Part shown: piece by piece, positions 1,316 to 20,239 of the stretch
Numbering within the stretch: the stretch's first letter is position 1
Layout: every line of letters begins with the position of its first letter
Source of the DNA: a virus
DNA: 24,721 nucleotides
Reading direction: 5' to 3' (one strand)
IMG/VR virus record: IMGVR_UViG_3300020182_000180
Coordinates: 1-24,721 of that record
Notes under the pieces: model-generated
What the model saw: only the letters and a program-made list of their open reading frames with translations
Database searches by the model: none
Told to the model about the DNA's origin: nothing
Translations under genes and position numbers: made by a program

Positions 1316-2686
1316 TTACTCCATTTTAAAGTCTTTAAAGCGTTCGTTTGTATTAGATTTATCAAACGCTGGTGTATCGTCTACAACACCTTCCTCAGCA
1401 TTGTCTGCATCAAACAACCTCATCCGAGATTTATCAATACCCAATACGAATCTTTTCTTGTAGTTTAGATCGTTATATCGGTTCTTCAATTGTTTAACCA
1501 TAACCTGTCCAAGAGCCTCTAGCTCTTCAGACGAGACTAATGCGAACATTAGATCTGCGGTAGCGGGTAGTCCAAAAGACTCGGACGTATCCTCAAGCCC
1601 AGGATCTGACGAAGAAAAACCACTACGAGTCGTCTGCGTTGCAGTAAAGATCGGTAGGTTGAATTCAACCGCAAGGCCTCGTAGTTCCTCAGCAATAGCT
1701 TTAATGAGAGTATAAGAATTAACATTTCCTCCTGCTTTCATTCTAGATGAGGTGCATATATTTAGGTAGTCTATAAACACCATCTCTGGAACAAAGTTCT
1801 TTTTTAGCTTCAATTCATTAAGCAGAGCACGGAAGTGACCAGCATGAGCTGAGCCAGTTGGATACTCTTTAATGATCAGTTTACCATTAGTACGAGAAGC
1901 AACATCAGCCACCTTAGATGTAAAGACAGACTTCTGCATGTCTTGTAGATCACCAATAGGAACATTAAGTAAGTTAGCATCAATACGTTCAGCAATACGT
2001 TCTTCTGCCATCTCCATAGTAATGTATAGAACATCTCTTCCCTGTGTTAAAGCATTAGCTGCAATATGACACATGAACAAAGACTTACCCACACCTGTAC
2101 CAGCTAACGCAACATTAAGAGTCTTGTTGGGGATACCACCTTTAGTGATGATGTTGAAGTATTCTAAGTCAAACGCAATACGATCTTCCTGAGCATTATA
2201 GAAGTCAAATCTCTCTTCCATGTTCTCGAGATAGTCGTGACCGATGTTAGTATCAAATGTCACCGCCAGAGCCTTCGTAAGAAGGTCTGGGAGTGCGTTC
2301 TTTGATAGCTCCTGGTGCTTTCCATCAATGATACTAATAGACTCCATGATAGCATTATGGATTGCTCTATCTTGACACCACTTCTCTGTAGTATCAAGTA
2401 TCCAATCAGTATCTGACTTCTCTGTAGCAGTATCAAAGATCGTTGGCATGATCTCACAAGCAGCAATGTATTGATCGTCACTAAACCTATTATTAGATTC
2501 AATCTCAATCTTAAATGCTTCTTGTGTAGGCATCTTATTGTACTTTGCAGCGTACTTAGCTACTTCTTTGAACAGTTGATTATACACACCCTGAAAGTAT
2601 TCAGGTTGAATGAATGGTAGTACCTTTCGCATAAACGCATCATCTGTTATCACGTTCCGTAATATTAACTGTTCTATATTGCTCAT
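1316..2686 (-). CDS. 41: Replicative DNA helicase, T4 gp41-like (DnaB family)
   Basis: This 456-residue protein is the hexameric helicase that unwinds DNA 5' to 3' at the phage fork and pairs with the primase. The N-terminal half is helical; the RecA-like core starts near residue 185. Walker A is GTGVGKS at 196-202, preceded by GGIPNKTLNVALA. Walker B is VFIDYLNI, and a Q/R-finger region lies around TATQTTRSG. Length is close to T4 gp41. It starts with an ATG sharing one base with the stop of the small upstream gene (TAATG) and lies downstream of uvsX, as in T4. A possible extra promoter inside the upstream gene (TTGACA and TATGCT, 17 bp apart, 2749-2777) is weak. Confidence 0.95.
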   Translation of the reverse strand: MSNIEQLILRNVITDDAFMRKVLPFIQPEYFQGVYNQLFKEVAKYAAKYNKMPTQEAFKIEIESNNRFSDDQYIAACEIMPTIFDTATEKSDTDWILDTTEKWCQDRAIHNAIMESISIIDGKHQELSKNALPDLLTKALAVTFDTNIGHDYLENMEERFDFYNAQEDRIAFDLEYFNIITKGGIPNKTLNVALAGTGVGKSLFMCHIAANALTQGRDVLYITMEMAEERIAERIDANLLNVPIGDLQDMQKSVFTSKVADVASRTNGKLIIKEYPTGSAHAGHFRALLNELKLKKNFVPEMVFIDYLNICTSSRMKAGGNVNSYTLIKAIAEELRGLAVEFNLPIFTATQTTRSGFSSSDPGLEDTSESFGLPATADLMFALVSSEELEALGQVMVKQLKNRYNDLNYKKRFVLGIDKSRMRLFDADNAEEGVVDDTPAFDKSNTNERFKDFKME

Positions 2687-2979
2687 TATTTTTCCTTCAT
2701 CCCTTCACCGTTAAGATTTTCCATCATAACGCTTTCTAATACCTTACCAGCATACCGCTGAAACTCAGTATTGTCAACCGAAAGATCTTCGTCAGGACTA
2801 TAATGTAGCGTCACATTGAACTTCAGTGTATCGGATCTGTTATCAATCTTGATATCACCAAAGCTGAATACTGATTCAATAAACTCGCCTTCCTTGATTC
2901 GAATATGCCAATGATCATCATCACCTGGTATCAATTCAAATTGTTTGTTCTGTTCAAACATACCTGGGATAGTAACCAT
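2686..2979 (-). CDS. Small protein between uvsX and gp41, in the T4 gp40 position (97 aa)
   Basis: I do not recognise the sequence. It is acidic and soluble-looking, with a beta-rich centre (HWHIRIKEGEFIESVFSFGD, then KFNVTLHYS) and a helical C-terminus. T4 has gene 40, a head-vertex assembly chaperone, between uvsX and 41, so the place matches, but I see no sequence reason to call it gp40, and T4 gp40 is membrane-associated while this has no membrane segment. It is translationally coupled on both sides by TAATG overlaps, with uvsX upstream and the helicase downstream, which suggests production with the recombination and replication proteins. Confidence 0.8.
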   Translation of the reverse strand: MVTIPGMFEQNKQFELIPGDDDHWHIRIKEGEFIESVFSFGDIKIDNRSDTLKFNVTLHYSPDEDLSVDNTEFQRYAGKVLESVMMENLNGEGMKEK

Positions 2980-4028
2980 TACAATTCTTGCTCCACAATA
3001 TCATCCATTGACACTAAAGATTGATGACCAATCTGATACTGCTTCTTTAAGAATTCTTTGAAATCAGTTCCATCAAAGACTGGATCCCAAAAGGACTTTT
3101 CGAGTGTAGCATCGTATCTAACTTTGCCTCCGACTTCGCCAGTAGATTGGTCAACCACAGCGTACCATCCGTTAGCAGGCTTAGTAACATAACCACCAGC
3201 GAGAGCGCAATCCAGCAGGCCAGAATACTTACGTACACCACCATCCCAAGATACGGTAATAGGAATTTTAGACTTTTCTTTAACATAACGACTCTTCTCT
3301 ACATTGATCACAAAGTGATAACCTTGAATCTCTGTACCTTTCTTATCTTGTTGACGACCTAAGATCCAGATGTTATCTGCTGAGTAGTATATACCTGTAC
3401 CACCACCAACTACATCTTTAGGGAATAGACCTATTTCTTTATATGTGTGATTGATTGCTAACATAGGAATTGCTTTCATAGTCAAGTATGGAGTTGCCAT
3501 ACGGAACAATCCTTTGAGAGCTTTAGCACGAGACATGTCTGCAACAGACTTCTCGTTGATAGCATCATCTAGTTCTTTCTTAGATGCCAAGTTACCAATA
3601 GAGTCAATAACAATGATGACCTTATCATCACGAGAGATTTCTTCTAGTTGGTTAATTAAATCAAACTTTAGTTCTTCTACATTAACAATAGGTGTATGCA
3701 AGATACGAGATGTATCAATACCAAACTGTTCAAAGTAACTTTGTGGTGAACCAAACTCACTATCATAGAATAGCATGATAGCATCAGGGTTCTTTTCTAA
3801 GTAAGCACCTGCCATTAGTAACGCAAATGATGTCTTAAAGTGTTTAGAAGGTCCTGCCAAGACTGTTAGTCCAGGTGTAACACCTCCATCGACAGACCCA
3901 GACAAAGCTACGTTTACCATAGGCACGTCTGTTGGTGTCATATCTTTTTCAGTAAAGAACTTTGATTGAGATAAAACCTCTGTAGTTTTAATCTTACTGT
4001 TCTTCTTTAGTTTGTCCATAATCGACAT
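2979..4028 (-). CDS. uvsX: UvsX, RecA-like recombinase
   Basis: UvsX forms filaments on single-stranded DNA and catalyses strand exchange, supporting recombination-dependent replication and repair with UvsY and gp41. Walker A is GPSKHFKTS at about 59-67, very close to the T4 form, and Walker B is VIIVIDSIGNL. The 349-residue length is slightly below T4 UvsX. I start it at the ATG at 4028 because GGGAG lies 10 bases upstream; a TTG at 4037 is too close to that site, and an ATG at 4019 is possible. It overlaps the end of the sugar dehydrogenase gene by 35 bases. A weak promoter-like pair lies just upstream at 4082-4110. Confidence 0.96.
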   Translation of the reverse strand: MSIMDKLKKNSKIKTTEVLSQSKFFTEKDMTPTDVPMVNVALSGSVDGGVTPGLTVLAGPSKHFKTSFALLMAGAYLEKNPDAIMLFYDSEFGSPQSYFEQFGIDTSRILHTPIVNVEELKFDLINQLEEISRDDKVIIVIDSIGNLASKKELDDAINEKSVADMSRAKALKGLFRMATPYLTMKAIPMLAINHTYKEIGLFPKDVVGGGTGIYYSADNIWILGRQQDKKGTEIQGYHFVINVEKSRYVKEKSKIPITVSWDGGVRKYSGLLDCALAGGYVTKPANGWYAVVDQSTGEVGGKVRYDATLEKSFWDPVFDGTDFKEFLKKQYQIGHQSLVSMDDIVEQEL

Positions 4029-4818
4029 TTTGTTCAATCTCCCGATTGTCTAATTCATATTGTAATCTGTACTCATTGTTTATATTAACACATTTAGCCA
4101 ATAAGGTCAACTGGTCAGAGAACTTAGTGAATGCTGATGTATCTTTAGGGAAGCAAGCTCCACCATATCCCTGTTTGCCATCAAAGCCAGGGACTTTGGT
4201 ATGACTAGACCCAATACGGTCATCCATACCAACAGCCTTAATAATTGTTGCGAAGTTCGCATTTGTTTCTCCTATTGCATCATATAATTGGTTAAAGAAT
4301 AAAACCTTCATGGCCAAGAAGCTATTGATTGTATACTTAACAAAGCTGGCTTCTTCTAGTGTCATATGGAGAGCAGGACATGGGTCACATAAACTATACT
4401 GCTCATACACTTTCTCAACATACTTAGTTGCATCGCACCACCCACCCAGTACATGAAAAGGTGGGGATACAAACTGCTCGTTAGCAGACTTCTCTGTGAG
4501 GAATTCAGGATTGTATACTACGTTGATAGGCCAGTTAGTAGCTATATCAGGAGTGACTGTTGACTTAACAACAATAGTAATATTAGAGCTAACTAATTCA
4601 TTGAGCACATCGTCAATAATACTACTATCAACAGCACCATCGTTTCCCATCGGGGTAGGTACGCACACAAAAGCAATGTCAAATAAAGAGACATCAGTGC
4701 TATCCAGATTGGTTCCATACTTGGGGTCCACAATAGTTTTTGTTACGTGGGGATGACTAAACCCATAGTCCACTGCTTGTCCTACAAAGCCATGCCCCAC
4801 AATCAATATATTTATCAT
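3994..4818 (-). CDS. Short nucleotide-sugar dehydrogenase (UDP-glucose/GDP-mannose dehydrogenase family)
   Basis: The family oxidises the C6 alcohol of a nucleotide sugar to a carboxylate in two NAD-dependent steps, for example UDP-glucose to UDP-glucuronate. Visible are the Rossmann motif GHGFVG (8-13), FVCVPTP (50-56), YNPEFLTEKSA (102-112), a conserved Lys161 in VKYTINSFLAMK, and the catalytic Cys222 in GGACFPKDT. The protein stops at 274 residues, whereas usual family members have about 390-450. The missing part is the C-terminal domain that binds the nucleotide of the substrate. It sits between a small membrane protein and uvsX, not in a sugar operon; a second sugar-nucleotide enzyme lies at 15767-16513. 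Substrate is unknown. Confidence 0.88.
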   Translation of the reverse strand: MINILIVGHGFVGQAVDYGFSHPHVTKTIVDPKYGTNLDSTDVSLFDIAFVCVPTPMGNDGAVDSSIIDDVLNELVSSNITIVVKSTVTPDIATNWPINVVYNPEFLTEKSANEQFVSPPFHVLGGWCDATKYVEKVYEQYSLCDPCPALHMTLEEASFVKYTINSFLAMKVLFFNQLYDAIGETNANFATIIKAVGMDDRIGSSHTKVPGFDGKQGYGGACFPKDTSAFTKFSDQLTLLAKCVNINNEYRLQYELDNREIEQNVDYGQTKEEQ

Positions 4819-5017: not shown

Positions 5018-5160
5018 ATTGTACTCTCTTTCTTTTGCTTTCTTAATTTTCTTAGTTTGGAATATAAACGCTCTGTACGCTCAGCTACCATTTTCTTTAA
5101 TGATCGTCTACGAGATCTCGCAACTGCTGATTTAGCAATTCGATCTGCTTTCTTTTTCAT
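5014..5160 (-). CDS. Very basic 48-residue protein
   Basis: This small gene fills the gap between the primase-like gene and the membrane protein. Reading from the ATG at 5160 gives 48 residues, starting [20 protein letters not shown] and ending LRKLRKQKKESTI. Twenty residues are Lys or Arg and only four are acidic, with the charges spread over what looks like one or two amphipathic helices. It is coupled by ATGA overlaps at both ends: with the stop of the primase-like gene and with the start of the membrane protein gene. This perfect fit supports a real gene despite its size. Such a charge pattern suits binding DNA, RNA or an acidic partner; the function is unknown. Confidence 0.75.
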   Translation of the reverse strand: MKKKADRIAKSAVARSRRRSLKKMVAERTERLYSKLRKLRKQKKESTI

Positions 5161-6122
5161 AACATAGCTCCATTCTTATATGCATATTCTAATGCGTTAT
5201 TGGCCTCTACTTCCATAGGCCTGTTCTCATACCAGTTTCCACTCTCAGCGTCAAATTGTCTACAGAGAGAAACTATCTCAGTTGCAGAGATGGGATAGCC
5301 CTTCTCTACTGCTTTGCCAGCTACCGCAATCATTATACGATACATCTGACGATACCAACCAGTGCTACTGATTGTCATATACTCTAATGCCATCTTTCTT
5401 GGCCAGAAGGGACAATCACTATAACCTGACCAGTGTATATCTGTATTGTCTAGCTTACCCTTACGATACTCAACGACTTGTTCTCTAAAGGCAGGTGGAA
5501 GTCTATCGAGGAAAGACGCTCCATCTCTAGTATTGCTATATGGCCATTTGGCTTGTAGATATGCCAAGTCCAAAGGCTCACCCACATTACTATAAAAAAA
5601 GTTATTAGCACCTGAGTAGTCCGCTGGAACGTAATACATCCTAGCAATGTCTTTAGTCTGCGCATCTCCAATCTCGTTGAGTTCTTGATTGAGAGCGTAC
5701 CAGAAGTGACGTAGTTCAGTTGCTTCAATCGGGATGCCAGTGTCGAATACAATCCGAAACTTTGGATGGTCGACCGTACTTGAAGCAGTGCTATACACCA
5801 CATAATTCCAGTCACCAAAGCGAGTTCGTAATACATCTTCTAATTCCCCCTCAATGATAAAGTCGTCAACATCAACAGCAGCCCAACTTCCCCAAGCCAA
5901 TACATTGTCGTTCTTTCTAGTAGAGTTAGGCTTAAATACAGCCGGCGATATAAGTTCAGCATCTTGTTTACCATTTAATGGCCTTTCACTTAATTTCTTT
6001 AAAAATTTTACACACTTGTTCCATGACTCAAAATCCATACGCCGATGCGTTTTATTATCATACACAAAACGGTTCTGTTCATCCCACCATCTTGGTGATT
6101 TGAATACTGTTAGACTATACAA
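5157..6122 (-). CDS. Archaeo-eukaryotic-type (AEP) primase/prim-pol candidate
   Basis: The protein shows the ordered motifs of AEP-type primases: an acidic pair in WAAVDVDDF (D84, D86), then [17 protein letters not shown] (about 110-126, with a His-Pro before the FRIV strand), then [10 protein letters not shown] (about 157-166). A helical C-terminal domain follows ([28 protein letters not shown]). There is no zinc ribbon or Toprim fold as in the DnaG-type T4 gp61. It would make primers for the gp41 fork, and it lies directly after the polymerase gene. I chose the TTG at 6122 (321 residues) because GGAGGA lies 5 bases upstream; an ATG at 6152 would add ten residues but has no properly spaced site. 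A strong promoter inside the polymerase gene (6217-6245) points at it. Confidence 0.7.
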
Positions 6123-8742
6123 AGAAGTCCTCCAATGTGGCTTTAGGTTCATCTTCCCAACCTACAGCATCTAGTATGTTGCGGATTGGTTCGAGAAACG
6201 ATTTCTCATACATTTTATTATAGTCTATATGTCGATGTAAGTCAAGCTCTTTTGGTAGAAAGCCTGGATAAGCAATAACGTTTTCCTTGATAGGATTAGG
6301 TTGCTTTAGATATACAAACTTGATCTTCTCACCGTTCTTAACAGTCTCGTATGATTTATCTAACTTATATCTCTTTACATAGTGGTTAAATAACAATGCA
6401 CCTCTAACATGTATAGGACAGCCCTTGGCGTAGATATATCTACGATCGTGCCATTTATCCACATCAGACACTCCACGAGGGAATGATACTTCTTCTGGTG
6501 TTAGCTTAGAGAAGTCAGACTTGAATTGCTTCAAGAATGCTTGAGTAGCTAACTCACCATCGTCGATAATAACTCTGAAGATCTCCTTGAACTTATCTCG
6601 ACAGACCTGAGGAGTAGAAGACTTAACAGCCTCAATGCCCATGATCTTTAACTTAGGCTCAGCATACTGAACACCTTCATTATTGTGTACGTTCAAGATG
6701 TAACGCTTCTTAGCAACCCAGATACCTTTATCAGCAATTACCTCACGAGCCATCTCCATACGATTCTCATATGCATTAGTCTGTATAGAAAGATCAGCGT
6801 ATGACTCTTTAAGTATCTTCTCAAAGTGATCTGCTGTAATCTTATCAATAAACTTGGTAGGATCAGCAGGTTCAAACTTATCTACAAGAGGTTTCATCTT
6901 AACATACAAAGAGTCTGTATCGATAGCAATGACATAGTCTTTATCAGTCTTCAATAGCTTATTCATCTCTTTGTTAATCGCACGCTCTGCCCACTTAATA
7001 GCCAGCTGACCAGAAGTCGTAATAGCTTCTGCCACACGATGATCAAAGTATCTGAAGTAGTTGTTACCTAGAGCGCCATACAAAGAGTTCATCAGAATCT
7101 TAATAGACATCTGCTGGTTGTGGAGTGTGTTAACTTCAGCTTCAAGTTTAGTCTTTGTTTTCTTCCATTGAATAGATGATACATCTTTTGATTGGGACGA
7201 GTTACCTCTTGTGTTTGTACTCATGCCTTCATCATTATCCATAGCATCCGCTTCTTCTATCATCCTACGGACCTGGCTTGGGTCTTGCCCAAGATTTACT
7301 AATTTCTGTTCTGCTTCTAACATACGATTCTTGATGGCTCTACGCTCATCATAGTATTGCTTAATGATCGATGGAATGATGCCCACACGTTCTTTAGTAA
7401 ACTGTTGACCAGTAGCAGCTACAGCATAGTCATCTTCTAATATAAACTCTTGACCATCTAAGATCTTATCTACATTAACACCTGGTATCTTACCTTCAAT
7501 AATAGTCTCTGGTGACATATTGTACTGAACAATGATGTTAGGATATAGAGAGTTAAGGTCAAACGATGCTACCCACTCATGTAATCCAACCATAGGATCT
7601 TTTACGAATGCGCCAGGATAAGGTTGCTTTGCTTTATTAACCTTAGGAGGTACAACAATCTGTTGCTTATTCAGCATACGATACAGAATAGAATCCCAGA
7701 TAGATGTAGTACCAAATGTCTCACTGAAGTTAACACCACCCCGATAAGCCATAGTCATAGCCAACTCAATTAGACCCATCTTCTCTTCTAGTCGCTCAAT
7801 CAATTGAACATCTTTAATGTTATAGTCGATATACTTCTGATGGTCTTCGTGATATAGGTTCTGTAGACCACCATGCTCTTCGATAGATAGCTTACGATCA
7901 CCCAGAACAATAAATGCAACGTGGTCCAACTTATAAGACTCGAGTGTCCCATAGCTGTATCCAAACTTACGGAATAGATCGTAGTAGTCAAGCTGTTGAA
8001 TACCCATCATCTCATAGGCAATATTAGATCTACCTGCAATAACAATATCGCGTTGATCTACTACACCCCAAGGAGAGAACTTCTTATACACATCACCACC
8101 AATGATATTCTTTACACGGTTAATCAAATATGGAAAGTCAAACAGTCTAGTATTCCATCCAGTTATGATATCTGGACACCAACGAGGATCATTCCAATAT
8201 CCCAAGAAGGATAGTAACAGATCTTGCTCATCTTTACACTTCTTATATTGAATACCTTTTACATCATCTATTGGACACTTATCTTCATCATAGTCTTTCA
8301 AAGCCCAGACATAGTAAGTATCAGACTGATTGTTCTTCATAGTAATAGCTGTCACAGGATGAGCAGCCTCTGCTACGAAGGGGAATCCATCTTCTGAATG
8401 GACCTCAATATCTAATGATGTAATGTTTACTTTAGACTTATCAAATGCAATCTCACCACGAAACTTATCAGTAATAAACTGAGTAACGTAGTTAGTCATA
8501 CCGTATATGGGAAAGTTGTCTACATCTGAATACTTCTTTACGAAGTCTCCTGCATCTCTCATTGAATCAAAGTCAATAGGTTGTACAGGTTTATTCTTTA
8601 GATTGTTCCAGCCAGTCTCTTTATCAGTAGCAACAAATAGAGTTGGCTCAAATTTAATCTTCTGATTAAATCTCTTACCATCTTTAAAACCACGATACAT
8701 TATATTGTTACCGTATCGATTAACACTTGTGTAAAAGTTCAT
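6115..8742 (-). CDS. 43: DNA polymerase, family B, T4 gp43-like
   Basis: This is the replicative polymerase with proofreading 3'-5' exonuclease, 875 residues against 898 in T4. Exonuclease motif I is [13 protein letters not shown] with D111 and E113; motif II is in [10 protein letters not shown]; motif III is [12 protein letters not shown]. Polymerase motif A is [11 protein letters not shown], motif B is [20 protein letters not shown], and motif C is [10 protein letters not shown], so all catalytic acids are present. It starts with an ATG behind TAGGAGGA, a strong ribosome site. A promoter at 8772-8800, nested in the terminator of the preceding mini-operon, drives it. Its end overlaps the start of the primase-like gene, fitting coupled production of polymerase and primase. 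Confidence 0.97.
6217..6245 (-). promoter_or_regulatory. Sigma70-type promoter inside the end of gp43
   Basis: On the minus strand a TTGACT -35 box (6240-6245) and a perfect TATAAT -10 box (6217-6222) are separated by exactly 17 bp. Transcription would start near 6210, about 90 bases before the primase-like gene. It lies within the coding sequence for the polymerase C-terminus. Eleven of twelve box positions match the consensus. I infer that it lets the primase-to-queD cluster be made independently of gp43; this has not been shown. Confidence 0.55.
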
Positions 8743-9757: not shown

Positions 9758-10165
9758 TTATTTATTTCCAATGTTATATTTTGGACAGAGTTCCCATTGA
9801 GCTTTTTCTTTGAATGGGATAATCTTAATTTGACGTAGAGGAGCACAAGTCAGCTCTTGCTTGATTTGTATCTCAACCAAACCCCAATCGCTTAACAATG
9901 TAGCAATTGTATTTCTACGTTCTAAATCATTTGCTTCTAGATTGGCTTTCTTACCATCTAGCATAAACAACTCTTTAAAGTGTACAATGAAGTACCTACC
10001 TTGCTTATGCAAGATGTGGCAGGACTGGAACAGTTTCTTATCTTTACGGGAGGCTACACCTATCCGTGTAAGCGTTTCTCTAACCTTCAAGAAGTCATCT
10101 GGTTCGTTAAGAACCACTTCCAACATATCTTGAGGTTGCCATTCAACAATGTTATTTTCTTCCAC
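9758..10165 (-). CDS. regA: RegA translational repressor
   Basis: RegA binds ribosome sites of many early phage messages and represses their translation, including clamp and clamp-loader genes in T4. The protein aligns along its length with T4 RegA: DDFLKVRETLTRIGVAS, FQSCHILHKQGRYFIVHFKE, LLSDWGLVEI and the end WELCPKYNIG. It begins with GTG at 10165, preceded by AAGG, giving 135 residues. An internal ATG at 10126 (MLEVVLNEPDDF) would match the T4 start and give 122 residues, the T4 length, so the true start is open. It overlaps the end of gp62 by 14 bases and is last in the gp44-gp62-regA group. The hsp20 promoter follows its stop. Confidence 0.95.
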   Translation of the reverse strand: MEENNIVEWQPQDMLEVVLNEPDDFLKVRETLTRIGVASRKDKKLFQSCHILHKQGRYFIVHFKELFMLDGKKANLEANDLERRNTIATLLSDWGLVEIQIKQELTCAPLRQIKIIPFKEKAQWELCPKYNIGNK

Positions 10166-10529
10166 CTTTACTCACCTTCTGTATTATTATAGTTATCTGT
10201 TCAGGTGACAGAAGAGAGAATACTTGTTTGGCTTTTTCATTGCTGTATCCATAGTATTGCTTAATCGCTTCAATATCACTAACCTGTTCAGGTTTCATCC
10301 ATTTTGAAAACCTTTTACGCTTTCGTATGATATTTATAAGAAAATGATATTGGAGTTTATTGGCTGTGTGATGATACTGATTCATCACATTAGCAAAGCC
10401 TACAGTGTCGGGGAAGTAGCTTAATGAACGATTTACCATAAAACCATTGTAAGACTTCTCAGTTAGGTCATCGACCATAACATCTTTCTTAGAATGATTG
10501 ATACTATTTAAGAATTCAAATGGACTCAT
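10152..10529 (-). CDS. 62: Clamp loader small subunit, T4 gp62-like
   Basis: gp62 pairs with four gp44 subunits to load the gp45 clamp at primer ends. The start MSPFEFLNSINHSKKDVM, then FMVNRSLSYFPDTV, ANVMNQYHH and RKRKRFSKWMKPE match the gp62 pattern seen in marine T4-like phages. At 125 residues it is clearly shorter than T4 gp62 (187); the missing part is C-terminal. Its ATG shares a base with the stop of the exonuclease gene (TAATG). T4 has gp44-gp62-regA in direct succession; here an exonuclease gene lies between gp44 and gp62. Confidence 0.9.
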   Translation of the reverse strand: MSPFEFLNSINHSKKDVMVDDLTEKSYNGFMVNRSLSYFPDTVGFANVMNQYHHTANKLQYHFLINIIRKRKRFSKWMKPEQVSDIEAIKQYYGYSNEKAKQVFSLLSPEQITIIIQKVSKGGRK

Positions 10530-11110
10530 TACAATGCCTGCACAATCGTCTGTAGACGCATAACGTCCATAGAGATATCAGCAGAAGGATCATGAGCAAC
10601 AAACTTATCAGCAAGCCCATCGGGGTAAAAGTTATCACGAATGTTATGACCAAAAGTCAACCCATTGATAAGACTAACTACCTCACGGAACTTCCAGTAT
10701 GCATACGGCATAGTGTTGCCAGATGATTCACATAAGGAAATCAATAGAGGTTGATCTAATGTAGCACGACGAGTGAGTACCCAGTCTACATTATCAATAG
10801 CGTTAGAGGTAAAGAACTCAAATGTCTTTGTGATCGATACATCTTCAGAAGAAGGCTTTAGCATAGCCTGAGCTTCTTTATTCTGTTTACTCCACCACTC
10901 AAGAGTGTCCTTATCAATAACACGGTTATGTGCCTTAACTTGTTCCTCCACATCATACTTGATAGTATCACAATAGTCAAGCAGTTCCTCGTACGTGTAA
11001 GGTTCTGTGGTAAAGCGATCAGTATCAAAGTTCAACATAGCTAAACTAACAGCTACACCTTTATTCACATCGAGAGATAATGTCTCGAAATCATATATTA
11101 TACATTTCAT
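10529..11110 (-). CDS. dexA: 3'-5' exonuclease, DexA-like (DEDD family)
   Basis: The start IIYDFETLSLDVNKGVAVSL gives the D-x-E motif of DEDD 3'-5' exonucleases, in the same form as T4 exonuclease A (DexA). The middle carries LEWWSKQNKEAQ, and the aspartates in WVLTRRATLDQPLL and HDPSADISMDVMRL are candidates for the remaining metal ligands. At 193 residues it is a little shorter than T4 DexA (227). I start it at the ATG at 11110, which overlaps the gp44 stop as ATGA. Such enzymes trim DNA or RNA 3' ends. In T4 dexA is elsewhere in the genome; here it is inside the clamp-loader operon, so it is made with the replisome. Confidence 0.8.
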   Translation of the reverse strand: MKCIIYDFETLSLDVNKGVAVSLAMLNFDTDRFTTEPYTYEELLDYCDTIKYDVEEQVKAHNRVIDKDTLEWWSKQNKEAQAMLKPSSEDVSITKTFEFFTSNAIDNVDWVLTRRATLDQPLLISLCESSGNTMPYAYWKFREVVSLINGLTFGHNIRDNFYPDGLADKFVAHDPSADISMDVMRLQTIVQAL

Positions 11111-12048
11111 TTGAAGGTCACCTGTGCCATAATTTCTGTCATGCAAGCAACTGTATTCAACTCGTGATCAGCTACAAACGCATCTTTATATTGATAGTCA
11201 GCAAGAATGATTACAAGCTGAGGTATGCTTTGAGGATCCACATGATCCATCATATTATCATACAACCCGCGAAAGATTGCACTTGTATCCATATCTAGGT
11301 TATCAACAACCCATCTACGCATAGCTTTAAAGTTCTTTTCTTTTAGGGTCGCCACGAGCTCAGATATATTATTAGAGCTACTAGTCCCAGCGCTACTAGC
11401 GTGAATTCCGACATTTCCAATGGCATTACGTTGTCCTTCGTTTATCACTCGACGCCAGTCAGGCGCATGTTTCATTATCAGATCAGCCACAGCCTTTGGT
11501 TCAAAGGTAACAGCTTCTTGTTCAAGGATTGTTGTAAACCGTTTAAAGAATTGACCAGCAAGATCGGCTAGGTCTTTCTTAGAAGTATTAAACTCATACA
11601 CACCACAACGTGAGTGTAAAGGTTCAATGATTCTATTCTTAAAGTTACAAGTAAGAATGAATCTACAGTTATTAGAGAACTCCTCAATAAAGCCACGAAG
11701 AGCTGGTTGTGTAGATTGAGGGTTAAGATAGTCAGCCTCATCTAAGATTACAACCTTGTATCCTCCTTGAAGAGATACAGAAGAAGCAAACTGCTTGATC
11801 TTGCCACGTAGAGTTTCAATGTTACCCTCTTCGGATCCATTGACAATAATATAATCAAGACCAAGCTGATTGCACATAGCTTTCGCTACAGTAGTCTTTC
11901 CAAGCCCAGCAGTACCGGTAAGCAACATATTAGGTAGCTCACCTGTCTTTACAACAGCTTGGAAAGTATTCTTTAGTTCGGTAGGGAGTATAGTATCCTC
12001 AATAGTCTTAGGACGATACTTCTCTACCCACAGGAAATCTTTTGACAT
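11107..12048 (-). CDS. 44: Clamp loader large subunit, T4 gp44-like AAA+ ATPase
   Basis: Four copies of gp44 with one gp62 open and close the gp45 ring on DNA using ATP. The 313 residues contain the N-terminal WVEKYRPKTIEDTILP box, Walker A GTAGLGKTT (45-53), Walker B VVILDEADYL (99-108, DEAD form) and the arginine-finger SRC at 146-148 in LHSRCGV. Length is close to T4 gp44 (319). Its ATG has GAGG 7 bases upstream, and a separate sigma70-type promoter at 12073-12101 precedes it, so it begins a transcription unit gp44-dexA-gp62-regA. Confidence 0.96.
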   Translation of the reverse strand: MSKDFLWVEKYRPKTIEDTILPTELKNTFQAVVKTGELPNMLLTGTAGLGKTTVAKAMCNQLGLDYIIVNGSEEGNIETLRGKIKQFASSVSLQGGYKVVILDEADYLNPQSTQPALRGFIEEFSNNCRFILTCNFKNRIIEPLHSRCGVYEFNTSKKDLADLAGQFFKRFTTILEQEAVTFEPKAVADLIMKHAPDWRRVINEGQRNAIGNVGIHASSAGTSSSNNISELVATLKEKNFKAMRRWVVDNLDMDTSAIFRGLYDNMMDHVDPQSIPQLVIILADYQYKDAFVADHELNTVACMTEIMAQVTFK

Positions 12049-14728: not shown

Positions 14729-15786
14729 GCTATCTCAAAACTCTGTGCTTCTGTCATTAAGTCAGACATCTGCTTTTTAATCCGATCTTTGTCCAGATCA
14801 GTTTCAACAGCGTCTATATAACTATCCAGCAAAACGGATGTGTCGTCAACAGATACTTCGGAGTCCTCAACATTATCTCCAATAAACTCATTGAAGTTTT
14901 CTGCTATCTTCAACTCAAGTATCTTACGATTCTGTATCCTATCGATAAACCTATCAAAGGTATATTGATCAGACTTGTTAATTACCTGAACTTTAACCAT
15001 ACGTCCATCAACATCTGATAGATCATAATGAAGGTAATCAGTTGCAGTATCATCATACCTAATACGTTGGAAAAGAGTATGAGGATTGTGAATAGCATCC
15101 AAGTTACGAGTCTCAGTATCAAGAACATGAAAGTACTTCTTATCATGAGCATCTGCCCAAGAGAATTCCATCTGCGATCCAAGGTATGTTACATTATCTT
15201 GTGTTGACTTTGTATGGAAATGTCCAGAATAAACAGCCTCAAATCTGTTAAAGATAGATCTATTAATCCCATGCTCACACTTGATACCAGGTAACATAGT
15301 ATACCCAATGATGTCAAAGTGACCACCAATAATATCACACTTAGCATTGGCAAGAAAGTCGTGTGCTTCCTTTTCATTTTCATCATTAATCCAAGGAACA
15401 AGACCCATCTTCAATGAGCCATACTCCATTACAGTAGGCTTGTGTACAATAGTAACTTCATTCATATAATGACCCAACAGCTCTTTCAAGCTGTTCAGCT
15501 CATTTGTGTTCTTATAGAATGTGTCATGGTTACCACAGATGATGTCCATGGTAATGCCATAGTCTCTTAGCTTCGCAAGAAAGAACTGGCGGTTACGGTT
15601 AAGAGCACGGAAGTTAATAAACTTCCTGTTATCGAAGTAATCACCAAGGTGAACGATATGATGAATATCATGTTCCAAAAGATAAGGAAAGAATACATCA
15701 GTAAAGAATTTCTCCGCATTATCGAGAAATATGTCAGAACTATTGCGGACACCAAGATGAGTGTCATTAAGAAGGGCTATTTTCAT
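14725..15786 (-). CDS. 47: Recombination nuclease subunit, T4 gp47-like (Mre11/SbcD family)
   Basis: This is the metallophosphoesterase half of the gp46/gp47 complex. The five metal-binding blocks are visible in order: NDTHLG near the N-terminus, HLGDYFDN, CGNHDTF, GGHFDIIG and SGHFHTK. The 353-residue length is near that of T4 gp47 (339). I start it at the ATG at 15786, giving MKIALLNDTHLG; a TTG two codons upstream is less likely. The first 20 bases overlap the end of the epimerase gene, and its stop overlaps the gp46 start as ATGA. The C-terminal third is acidic and probably binds gp46. Confidence 0.96.
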   Translation of the reverse strand: MKIALLNDTHLGVRNSSDIFLDNAEKFFTDVFFPYLLEHDIHHIVHLGDYFDNRKFINFRALNRNRQFFLAKLRDYGITMDIICGNHDTFYKNTNELNSLKELLGHYMNEVTIVHKPTVMEYGSLKMGLVPWINDENEKEAHDFLANAKCDIIGGHFDIIGYTMLPGIKCEHGINRSIFNRFEAVYSGHFHTKSTQDNVTYLGSQMEFSWADAHDKKYFHVLDTETRNLDAIHNPHTLFQRIRYDDTATDYLHYDLSDVDGRMVKVQVINKSDQYTFDRFIDRIQNRKILELKIAENFNEFIGDNVEDSEVSVDDTSVLLDSYIDAVETDLDKDRIKKQMSDLMTEAQSFEIA

Positions 15787-16513
15787 AATCAAGTATATTC
15801 CAGTTAGGTGTGTAACCTAGCCTCAGCAGAGGCTCGATATCAGCTTTTGTAGACTCACGTTCACCATTAGGGTTCTCATCAACATAGTCACCTTTGTAGC
15901 CCATTACTTTTGCTACTTCTCTTACCGGTACAACGTGTCCCGTACCAATATCCACTACTTTCTGTCCAACGTCAACAAAATTATTCATTAAAATCCAAAT
16001 AGCTTGCATAATATCATCAACGTGAACAAAGTCTCGATAATGATTGTTGTTGATATATGTTACATCGTTACGTTGTAGTTTCTTAAACAACATATCATCG
16101 CGGCCAGGCCAGATAGTATGAAACCTCATGCCAATAGCAGGATAGTCTTCACATTGAATCTCATTCATCTTCTTAGTTGTGGCATATGGATTACCCCACC
16201 ACTCATAAGCATTAGATGAAGATGCATATAAGATACGTTTAGAGTTGCTTTCAGAAAAGGCTAACATCTCTCTTGTACCATTCACATTGTTATCATAATA
16301 CAACTCAGGTTGCTCAAATGATACACGGACACCAGCTAGAGCAGCCAAGTGTATAATATAATCAAATTCTAGACCTTCGTACTTTGCCCAATCTTGTCGA
16401 GATCGGATATCCTTATCTTCACCAAATTCGTATACTGTACAGTCATTATTTTTTAGGAACTTAACTAGGCGACTGCCTACCATCCCATCTGAACCAGTAA
16501 CTAATACTCTCAT
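15767..16513 (-). CDS. NAD-dependent sugar-nucleotide epimerase/dehydratase (extended SDR family)
   Basis: The protein is an extended short-chain dehydrogenase/reductase. The NAD-binding motif is TGSDGMVG (6-13), IIHLAALAG follows at 53-61, the catalytic Tyr and Lys are in YATTK (110-114), Ser98-100 lie upstream, and RDFVHVDDI is at 160-168. These place it with WcaG-like enzymes that epimerise or dehydrate UDP- or GDP-sugars; the exact substrate cannot be read. At 248 residues it is shorter than the usual 300-350, with a reduced substrate-binding lobe. It lies between gp55 and gp47, coupled to gp55 by TAATG. With the dehydrogenase at 3994-4818 it could form a short nucleotide-sugar pathway, for the virion, the phage DNA or the host surface. 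Confidence 0.88.
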   Translation of the reverse strand: MRVLVTGSDGMVGSRLVKFLKNNDCTVYEFGEDKDIRSRQDWAKYEGLEFDYIIHLAALAGVRVSFEQPELYYDNNVNGTREMLAFSESNSKRILYASSSNAYEWWGNPYATTKKMNEIQCEDYPAIGMRFHTIWPGRDDMLFKKLQRNDVTYINNNHYRDFVHVDDIMQAIWILMNNFVDVGQKVVDIGTGHVVPVREVAKVMGYKGDYVDENPNGERESTKADIEPLLRLGYTPNWNILDYENSPS

Positions 16514-17888: not shown

Positions 17889-18310
17889 TAGTGTAACTTA
17901 TCCTTATCAAATAGAGGAACAATGTTATCTTCTGCATCTGGATCTTCTTCTTCATCGGTAGCATTTCGATATAGACTCTTCAACATTTCTATATCTTGTT
18001 CATCATCTTCTCTCGTGGGACCCATTTCATTCTCAATAGCTTTTTCATATTGAATAACCAATTGTTTATCTGGTTTAGCCTCACCTACAATGTGTGAATA
18101 GTTTAGCAGTTGAAAGTAATCTGAGTTAAGTTGAAATGACATCCAGGGTCTTAATGAATAGTATCTGAATCCAGAATCTACTTCTTCTGAACGGACAATC
18201 ATCATCGCGTCCTTAATAACAATGTTTATATCCTCACCCTCAGGTTCTTGGAGTACGTTTACAATTATTTCGTCACCATTAGATAACTTAAATTGAGTGA
18301 AGCTTGTCAT
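17888..18310 (-). CDS. Sm-like (LSm/Hfq-fold) protein with acidic tail (140 aa)
   Basis: The first 85 residues read like an Sm fold: FKLSNGDEIIVNVLQEP (strands 1-2, with the L.nG.ei.g.v pattern), INIVIKDAMMIV (strand 3), YYSLRPWMSFQ (strand 4) and a final strand near YFQLLNYSHIVGEA. Sm proteins form rings that bind U-rich or A-rich RNA. I recall that a crystal structure of an Sm-like protein of probable cyanophage origin from marine metagenomes has been published, which supports the reading. The C-terminal third is strongly acidic (DEEEDPDAEDN) and probably disordered. It overlaps the uvsW stop (ATGA) and is coupled to the ATP-grasp-like gene. Confidence 0.72.
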   Translation of the reverse strand: MTSFTQFKLSNGDEIIVNVLQEPEGEDINIVIKDAMMIVRSEEVDSGFRYYSLRPWMSFQLNSDYFQLLNYSHIVGEAKPDKQLVIQYEKAIENEMGPTREDDEQDIEMLKSLYRNATDEEEDPDAEDNIVPLFDKDKLH

Positions 18311-19803
18311 TTGATATCCACCTTTACAATCTCATAATTAAATTCTTGTTTCTCATACATCTTAACACGCTCTGCAGAATGCATCAATGTAAAGTTATTT
18401 CTTTTACCCCAATGTAGATCATCCGCTACGTCAAACAACTTAGTAGTTACGCCATTATCTGATTGACGGAGACCACGACCAATACTCTGTAGAACTTTAA
18501 TCTGAGACTTACTTGGAGAAGCAAATATGATATTGTGTAAGTTACGAATATTAATTCCTGTGCTGAATGTTCCTAACGATGCAACTATAATAGCATTGTT
18601 CTGCTTTTCAACAATCTTACGAATTGCCTCTCTGTCTGATGTTGCTGTATCACCCGATACAAAGAACACCTTCCGTCCCTGCTCTACCTTGTTATTTATA
18701 AGGTCGTAGAGAGGCTTGCCATGAGCGTCCACACGTTGATATAAGACAAGAGTATTTCCCGTAGCAGATATAGCCAAATTGCGAATGAAATTATTACGAG
18801 ACTCATTTCCAATAATGAAGTTAATTTCATCTTGATAAGTTTTCTTTCCAAAGTTTTTCCTTACTTCCTCTGAATAATTCATTAATAGAACTTTAATATC
18901 TAATGCCGCAAGGGTCTCATCATCTTGTAGTGCTTTGGTGGTTGTGACTTGATATACAGGGCCAAAGAGCCCCTCTAGTACCAACTTGTGAGTCAGAGTA
19001 CCATCTAGTGTCCCTGTAAACCCGTAACGATACTTTGCTTCTGTGGCTTTGTTCATAATTGATGATAACGACTTAGATTTAAAACCATGACACTCGTCAC
19101 CCAGGATCATACCAAACTGTTCGAACCACTTTTTGGGTAACTTATAAATAGATTGCCATGTACTAATAATGATGGCAGCATCTGTGTCTTTATCTTTGCC
19201 TGAATATATCTTATGCATTCCACGTGCATCTTGACCATAATCAACAAAATCTTGATGCATTTGTTCAACAAGTGACGTTGTTGGTACAATTACCAATACT
19301 CTACCTGCTTTTGGATGACCCACACCATTAGCAATATATTGTAACCAATACTTAGCTATGAGATAAATTATAAATGATTTACCTGAACCTGTAGGAGATA
19401 ATAGAATTGCTCGAGATCGTTTTAGGGCTGTTTCAATGGCATCGTATTGGTACTCTCGAGGCTGAAATGGAAGCTTTGCGTCAGCAAGTAAATCAGGTAG
19501 TGATTGAAGAACGGATTGACTATCCGGAACCGGTAGACCATAATCAGACTCTTCTGTGTCAAGAGAATATGATCGCTCAGCTGCAAACTTTATTAAATAA
19601 ACATATAGCCCAGCAGAGAGCTCTCCAGTCATGCGATTGAATAGCTTTATCTTACCATCCCAAACTTTATTCTTGTATGCAGGCATAAACTTATACCCTG
19701 GAACAAAAAATGAAAAGTAGTCGCTGATCTCAGCTGCTAAGCCAGGTTCAACATCAACATATAACATACTATAATCTTTTAGTCTACATACAATATCAAC
19801 CAC
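18307..19803 (-). CDS. uvsW: UvsW, RNA-DNA and DNA helicase (SF2)
   Basis: UvsW unwinds R-loops and branched DNA, switching replication from origin to recombination mode. Visible are an N-terminal domain with VPGYKFMPAYKNKVWDGKIK, motif Q near FQPREYQYDA, Walker A SPTGSGKS (about 136-143), the DECH box in ILGDECHGFKS, the SAT-like region in YGFTGTLDG, and motif VI QSIGRGLRQ. I chose the GTG at 19803 because the following residues (VDIVCRLKDYSMLYVD) line up with the T4 start MDIKVHFHDFSHVRID and GGAGG lies 13 bases upstream. That gives 498 residues, near the T4 length of 503. It overlaps the uvsY stop by 8 bases, a coupled arrangement. Confidence 0.95.
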   Translation of the reverse strand: MVDIVCRLKDYSMLYVDVEPGLAAEISDYFSFFVPGYKFMPAYKNKVWDGKIKLFNRMTGELSAGLYVYLIKFAAERSYSLDTEESDYGLPVPDSQSVLQSLPDLLADAKLPFQPREYQYDAIETALKRSRAILLSPTGSGKSFIIYLIAKYWLQYIANGVGHPKAGRVLVIVPTTSLVEQMHQDFVDYGQDARGMHKIYSGKDKDTDAAIIISTWQSIYKLPKKWFEQFGMILGDECHGFKSKSLSSIMNKATEAKYRYGFTGTLDGTLTHKLVLEGLFGPVYQVTTTKALQDDETLAALDIKVLLMNYSEEVRKNFGKKTYQDEINFIIGNESRNNFIRNLAISATGNTLVLYQRVDAHGKPLYDLINNKVEQGRKVFFVSGDTATSDREAIRKIVEKQNNAIIVASLGTFSTGINIRNLHNIIFASPSKSQIKVLQSIGRGLRQSDNGVTTKLFDVADDLHWGKRNNFTLMHSAERVKMYEKQEFNYEIVKVDIK

Positions 19804-20239
19804 CGGCTTCGAACTGCCTCCATTTAATAATATTACCAATCGTCTGATGACGCCAGTTCAGATTATTAACTATTTCATTAAGAGTATCTATCATAGTTTT
19901 TATATACTGTATTTTCATTTCAGACTCTTGAATCTCTTTATCAGAGTCATAGTAGTAATCCATTTCACCCTTCATAACCTTCAGACCTTCTAGTGGGTCG
20001 TATTCCCAACCCAGATCTTTAATCTGTTCTTCTGTCATCTTTCCATTGTACCAAAGCCACTTCTTCTTTAGCAGTGTCTTTTGATCCATCTCCATCTTCT
20101 TCATACGCAACTTTGCATTAGAAAGTAACGCAAGATACTTTGCATGTAAAGCAGGAGTTTGTCGAGAGACCTCATCTAGTTCAGTACGAGGCAGATTTGA
20201 ATCAGTAGCCCACTCTTGGAGCACTTGTTCTAAGTTCAT
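19796..20239 (-). CDS. uvsY: UvsY, recombination mediator
   Basis: UvsY loads UvsX on single-stranded DNA covered by gp32. The 147 residues (T4: 137) are almost all helical and charged. The central block TLLKKKWLWYNGKMTEEQIK with the following DLGWEYDPL is the UvsY signature in marine phages, and the C-terminal helix (MIDTLNEIVNNLNWRHQTIG) ends in IIKWRQFEAGG. The gene starts with an ATG at 20239, with only a weak TGGA site, and is followed by uvsW overlapping its stop. T4 also has uvsY and uvsW side by side. Confidence 0.9.
   Translation of the reverse strand: MNLEQVLQEWATDSNLPRTELDEVSRQTPALHAKYLALLSNAKLRMKKMEMDQKTLLKKKWLWYNGKMTEEQIKDLGWEYDPLEGLKVMKGEMDYYYDSDKEIQESEMKIQYIKTMIDTLNEIVNNLNWRHQTIGNIIKWRQFEAGG

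Follow-up and report, generated by a model that had tools for sequence, protein, structure and literature searches.

Based on profile searches, structure models and gene order across related genomes, we propose that in a marine clade of T4-type phages the primase gp61 has been non-orthologously replaced by a VirE/VapE-related archaeo-eukaryotic-type primase (AEP), which now works together with the gp41 helicase. We place the probability of this reading at roughly 0.8. The primosome formed by gp41 and gp61 is the textbook pairing. The DNA analyzed here, referred to as the window, is the entire IMG/VR record IMGVR_UViG_3300020182_000180, a genome fragment of 24,721 nt.

The window carries a T4-type replication and head cluster in which gp43, gp41, gp44/62, RegA, UvsX and UvsW occur together (Table 1), and its remaining genes follow the order of Phage C48C1. 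The AEP reading frame lies on the minus strand, as the initial annotation had claimed, and with the C48C1 AEP as query at least 600 relatives are found in IMG/VR, so that a chance open frame can be dismissed. Its TTG start, with which a Met aligns in many relatives, overlaps the stop of gp43 (TTTGTATAG); a further in-frame ATG is located upstream, at 6152, from which all residue numbers are counted here. The placement directly after gp43 and upstream of uvsX and gp41 described earlier holds, except that a UDP-glucose dehydrogenase gene intervenes before uvsX. The same intervening gene is found in C48C1 and many relatives. Related contigs retain the order gp43-AEP-uvsX-gp41: of the 137 AEP loci with sufficient upstream DNA, 131 are preceded by a co-oriented gp43 (median gap 35 bases), and at the 53 loci with 7 kb of downstream sequence, uvsX follows in all and gp41 in 52. 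We note that sugar-nucleotide genes are present inside the replication cluster of the window, namely the dehydrogenase and an epimerase (15767-16513), and that a 6-pyruvoyl-tetrahydropterin-synthase-like gene and a thymidylate synthase gene (2-391 and 622-1308) lie downstream of gp41.

Table 1. Features of the AEP gene and its neighbourhood in the window (residues numbered from the ATG at 6152).
Feature	Coordinates	Strand	Remark
AEP-type primase gene	5157..6122	-	321 aa from TTG at 6122; 331 aa with ATG at 6152
AEP motif I, WAAVDVDD	5862..5885	-	D94/D96/D97 invariant; Asp residues putative metal ligands by homology
AEP motif II region	5754..5795	-	Ala123 in place of the usual AEP His; K131/R133 invariant
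AEP motif III D163 and downstream R171-M172	5637..5666	-	R171-M172 agrees with motif IV, 'Rh', as given in PMC5862659
AEP helical C-terminal domain, residues 207-329	5166..5534	-	PriCT-like in position; seen in models
gp43, family B DNA polymerase	6115..8742	-	directly upstream of AEP, overlapping
UDP-glucose/GDP-mannose dehydrogenase	3994..4818	-	between AEP and uvsX; passenger, common in relatives
UvsX recombinase	2979..4037	-	profile match
gp41-type DnaB helicase	1316..2686	-	presumed AEP partner; N-terminal hairpin conserved
RegA	9758..10165	-	phrog_242
gp62 clamp loader subunit	10152..10529	-	phrog_225
gp44 clamp loader subunit	11107..12048	-	homologous to C48C1 and T4 gp44
UvsW helicase	18307..19839	-	UvsW_N, ResIII

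The window protein is almost certainly a member of the AEP superfamily. It matches PHROG 9765, 'DNA primase', with an E-value of 2.5e-36 and other phage primase-helicase PHROGs more weakly; searches of Pfam, NCBIfam and PDB sequences returned no match for it, and PF08800 matches weakly in 4 of the 45 non-redundant family members (50-78% identity) that were used to assess conservation. Across these 45 members D94, D96, D97, K131, R133, D163, Q165, K167, D168 and R171 are invariant. The hhhDhD/E pattern of motif I is present as AAVDVDD, with D94 and D96 as its acids, and the hD of motif III is provided by D163, which aligns in register with the corresponding Asp of VirE-type proteins. The sxH of motif II is in contrast lost, reading sTA with Ala instead of His in the 45 members and SSP in the Vibrio phage V6Aob; the surrounding region is YSTHKHT in the VirE-type protein of Monoglobales phage CHVD 5762, YSTASST in the window family and YSSPNCT in the Vibrio relatives. 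All motifs quoted in the initial annotation are present in the window protein and are followed by a helical C-terminal part in the AlphaFold model, although in the 'HPKFR' motif K131 and R133 are conserved and the His is not.

The motif II His is required in many AEPs but varies among AEP families, some of them active, and the Arg of motif IV might compensate for its absence (PMC5862659); the His is hence not defining for every AEP, and the superfamily membership stands. Its loss possibly reflects strong divergence or an altered reaction. The replaced His would also suit a catalytically dead AEP that merely bridges template and helicase, which we regard as improbable in the extreme, as both acids of motif I as well as D163, K131, R133 and R171 show no variation across 45 diverse members and as active AEP families likewise include ones in which this His varies. 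In S-2L PrimPol, the counterparts E85, D87, D88, D146 and R157 are described as catalytic or nucleotide-binding, with D88 tentatively linked to primer start (PMC8065100), and the 'Rh' motif IV is essential in PolpTN2 (PMC5862659). By homology with these two enzymes, the invariant residues of the window AEP would serve corresponding roles.

An AlphaFold2 model of the window AEP, built on the family alignment (pLDDT 85.8), identified the AEP domain of S-2L PrimPol (6zp9) as top match in a Foldseek search of the PDB (E 5.7e-5, probability 1.00), the only PDB match below 1e-3. A second model, of member L150 from the other branch of the clade (pLDDT 89.4), again placed 6zp9 first (E 1.7e-5), followed mostly by further AEPs, i.e. 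AsfvPrimPol, LigD-Pol, Prim-PolC and human PrimPol, in agreement with an RRM-like catalytic core in both models. Compared with predicted viral structures, the AEP model yielded 69 matches with E below 1e-3, among which VirE-type proteins, primases and primase-helicases are numerous. Against AEPs of solved structure, TM-scores remain modest, at 0.33 by query and 0.5 by target, as expected in a divergent AEP family. Profile-profile alignment using HHalign relates the window family to the N-terminal domain of VirE-type proteins (CHVD 5762 and six relatives) with a probability of 96 over residues 77-203, and with an E-value of 2.9e-9 for one pair. The earlier assignment to the AEPs is thus corroborated by two structure models, PHROG profiles and the alignment to VirE-type primase domains. 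The C-terminal domain is helical in both AlphaFold models. A PriCT homology of this part gained no support from Pfam (0 of 45 members) or from profile-profile alignment. The C-terminal helix resembles the HIM2 helix of gp61 (IEAQIKFTEWKKV), a likeness that is not counted as evidence.

The distribution of the two primases was assessed using P-SSM7 gp61, a three-sequence gp61 profile and PHROG 47 as gp61 queries. The first two recover gp61 in P-SSM7, T4 and phiM19, and none in C48C1 (complete, 156,191 bp), V6Aob (98,689 bp) or seven IMG/VR contigs of 70-160 kb. PHROG 47 agrees with the gp61 profile, adds HTVC008M to the gp61-bearing phages and has no match in Vibrio phage henriette or in another ten AEP contigs, 35-53 kb long; it also detects DnaG, with matches in 11 of 14 cellular control genomes. 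Conversely, the AEP profile finds no AEP in the gp61 phages P-SSM7, T4, phiM19 and HTVC008M, while C48C1, contigs of 145-160 kb and V6Aob, the latter from a distant T4-type lineage and with an AEP of the window family, combine AEP and gp41 without gp61. A complete gp61 together with a missing AEP match would have spoken against a replacement, and the outcome is the opposite, with clear AEP matches and no gp61 in C48C1, V6Aob, henriette and IMG/VR contigs of up to 160 kb. The proposal of the initial annotation that the AEP may replace gp61 hence gains support from mutual exclusion in relatives, from which the absence of gp61 in the genome of the window, itself a fragment, is deduced. An apparent co-occurrence of gp61 and AEP in two MAG bins (L269, L270) was traced to separate contigs of differing length, as each bin holds several phage contigs and the AEP contigs and gp61 contigs are disjoint. 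These bins, labelled Rhodobacteraceae and Sphingobacteriales, mix T4-type phages.

Alternatively, a divergent gp61 or another DnaG-type primase may have been missed, with the AEP being an accessory gene. Extreme divergence can escape profiles, and the window is a fragment, but we consider this very unlikely, since the same profiles recover gp61 of T4, P-SSM7, phiM19 and HTVC008M and the DnaG-detecting profile matches most cellular controls. Moreover, when 155 kb of C48C1 were searched in all six frames with the HMM filters switched off, the best gp61 E-value was 3.5, which is noise. In P-SSM7 and HTVC008M gp61 is located directly before nrdA, whereas only short ORFs precede nrdA in C48C1, consistent with loss of gp61 there. 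The AEP phages group as a single clade in a gp41 tree (support 92/96), and this clade adjoins gp61-bearing cyanophages and HTVC008M, with the deeper order limited by long branches. Neither the AEP phages nor P-SSM7 yielded a gp59 helicase loader, and its absence is therefore uninformative on the AEP.

Many AEPs function in repair or lesion bypass, forks of T4-type phages also begin by recombination, and the motif II change might signal a different reaction. The AEP could accordingly be a second, PrimPol-like polymerase for repair or repriming, with the fork primed by host DnaG or transcripts. We judge this unlikely: gp61 is missing exactly where the AEP occurs, in two lineages, the AEP gene sits with gp43, uvsX and gp41 and is intact across the clade, and no T4-type helicase is known to use host DnaG.

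Among known systems, T4 gp61 (phrog_47, DnaG type) likewise comes from a T4-type phage with gp41, gp43, gp44/62, gp32 and UvsX, and presumably does the same job. The folds are however unrelated, and the gene position differs; no zinc ribbon or Toprim matches were detected in the window AEP, and its hhalign probability against the gp61/DnaG type is 0.6%. The template must therefore be recognized differently than by gp61, as the AEP family has no zinc ribbon. VirE/VapE-type AEP domains (phrog_9765, phrog_256; e.g. CHVD 5762) share the motifs in register over 120 residues, but there the AEP domain is joined to an AAA+ helicase of the same protein, and motif II still reads STHxH. The window AEP, at 321-331 aa, instead stands alone with no P-loop domain; its helical C-terminus is a different one, and its motif II has Ala. 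S-2L PrimPol resembles the window AEP in its fold, in the metal-site acids followed by a second Asp, and in the downstream Asp and Arg (PMC8065100). It differs by a fused PriCT-2 and a further C-terminal domain, by the retained motif II His, and by belonging to a phage that is not T4-type. In Bacillus phage 0305phi8-36 an AEP is encoded beside a DnaB helicase (gp181/gp182) and joint action has been proposed, but a DnaG primase and a Pol III type polymerase are encoded by this phage as well, and its replisome is not that of T4 (PMC2147016).

The Vibrio phages henriette 12B8 and V6Aob have a stand-alone AEP of the same family (29-30% identity) that has also lost the motif II His, and they carry no gp61; gp41 is present in V6Aob. 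Their AEP gene is located elsewhere in the genome, after uvsY and before a Dda-like helicase, and gp43 is split. The V6Aob AEP found no loci in IMG/VR when used as query. Directly after the AEP both phages have a helicase gene that is not gp41 (V6Aob, L002 14974-17274, Dda-like; henriette, L191 19980-22269), and gp43 is present as two ORFs in henriette (L191 8417-11697) and in Synechococcus phage ACG-2014f (L184 3018-6034). Cyanophage S-TIM5 contains a stand-alone AEP-like ORF (F417_gp072, L193 7482-8468), annotated as hypothetical, that adjoins a DUF5906 'DNA primase'; gp61 was looked for in this genome and not found.

For primer synthesis by the AEP, the chemistry of the primer, contact with gp41 and the roles of single residues, we infer the following mechanism. 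The stand-alone AEP, made beside gp43, would take over the job of gp61 and work with the gp41 ring on the lagging-strand template. The two metal-bound acids of motif I and D163 would join the first nucleotides, with K131, R133 and R171 holding the triphosphate in place of the missing motif II His, after which gp43 and the gp45 clamp would receive the primer. The helical C-terminal domain may bind the template or gp41. In T4, the N-terminal hairpin of gp41 (residues 104-118) is where gp61 docks, using HIM1 together with its C-terminal helix HIM2 (PMC10359460). Altered gp61-docking residues in gp41 of AEP phages were considered and rejected, as this hairpin is equally conserved in AEP phages and gp61 phages, compatible with a shared docking site on gp41. 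The hairpin also builds the N-terminal ring of gp41, and its conservation is therefore no proof of docking. Speculatively, a VirE-lineage primase freed of its AAA+ helicase might have been refitted onto gp41 in at least two lineages, docking on the gp41 hairpin that recruits gp61, possibly via its conserved C-terminal helix, and, in the absence of a zinc ribbon and of the motif II His, making primers of another length or chemistry (DNA or mixed) than the pentaribonucleotides of T4.

It is already known that AEPs occur widely in phages and that they can function alongside DnaB-type helicases. The records of C48C1, V6Aob and henriette carry the label 'DNA primase', hence the annotation as such was already in place. 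In a review of T4 relatives, gp41 and gp61 both appear in the core genome (PMC2993671), and a survey of jumbo phages reports primases of the DnaG type for the T4-like group and AEPs for another (PMC7824862); no description of an AEP substituting for gp61 in T4-type phages was found in the open-licence papers searched.

In conclusion, an abundant marine clade keeps the T4 replisome while carrying an unrelated primase, which means that gp61 does not qualify as a core marker across the T4-type phages as a whole. The clade offers a natural replacement experiment, from which one can learn how a primase with a different fold is accommodated by a DnaB-family ring and what determines primer length and start site.
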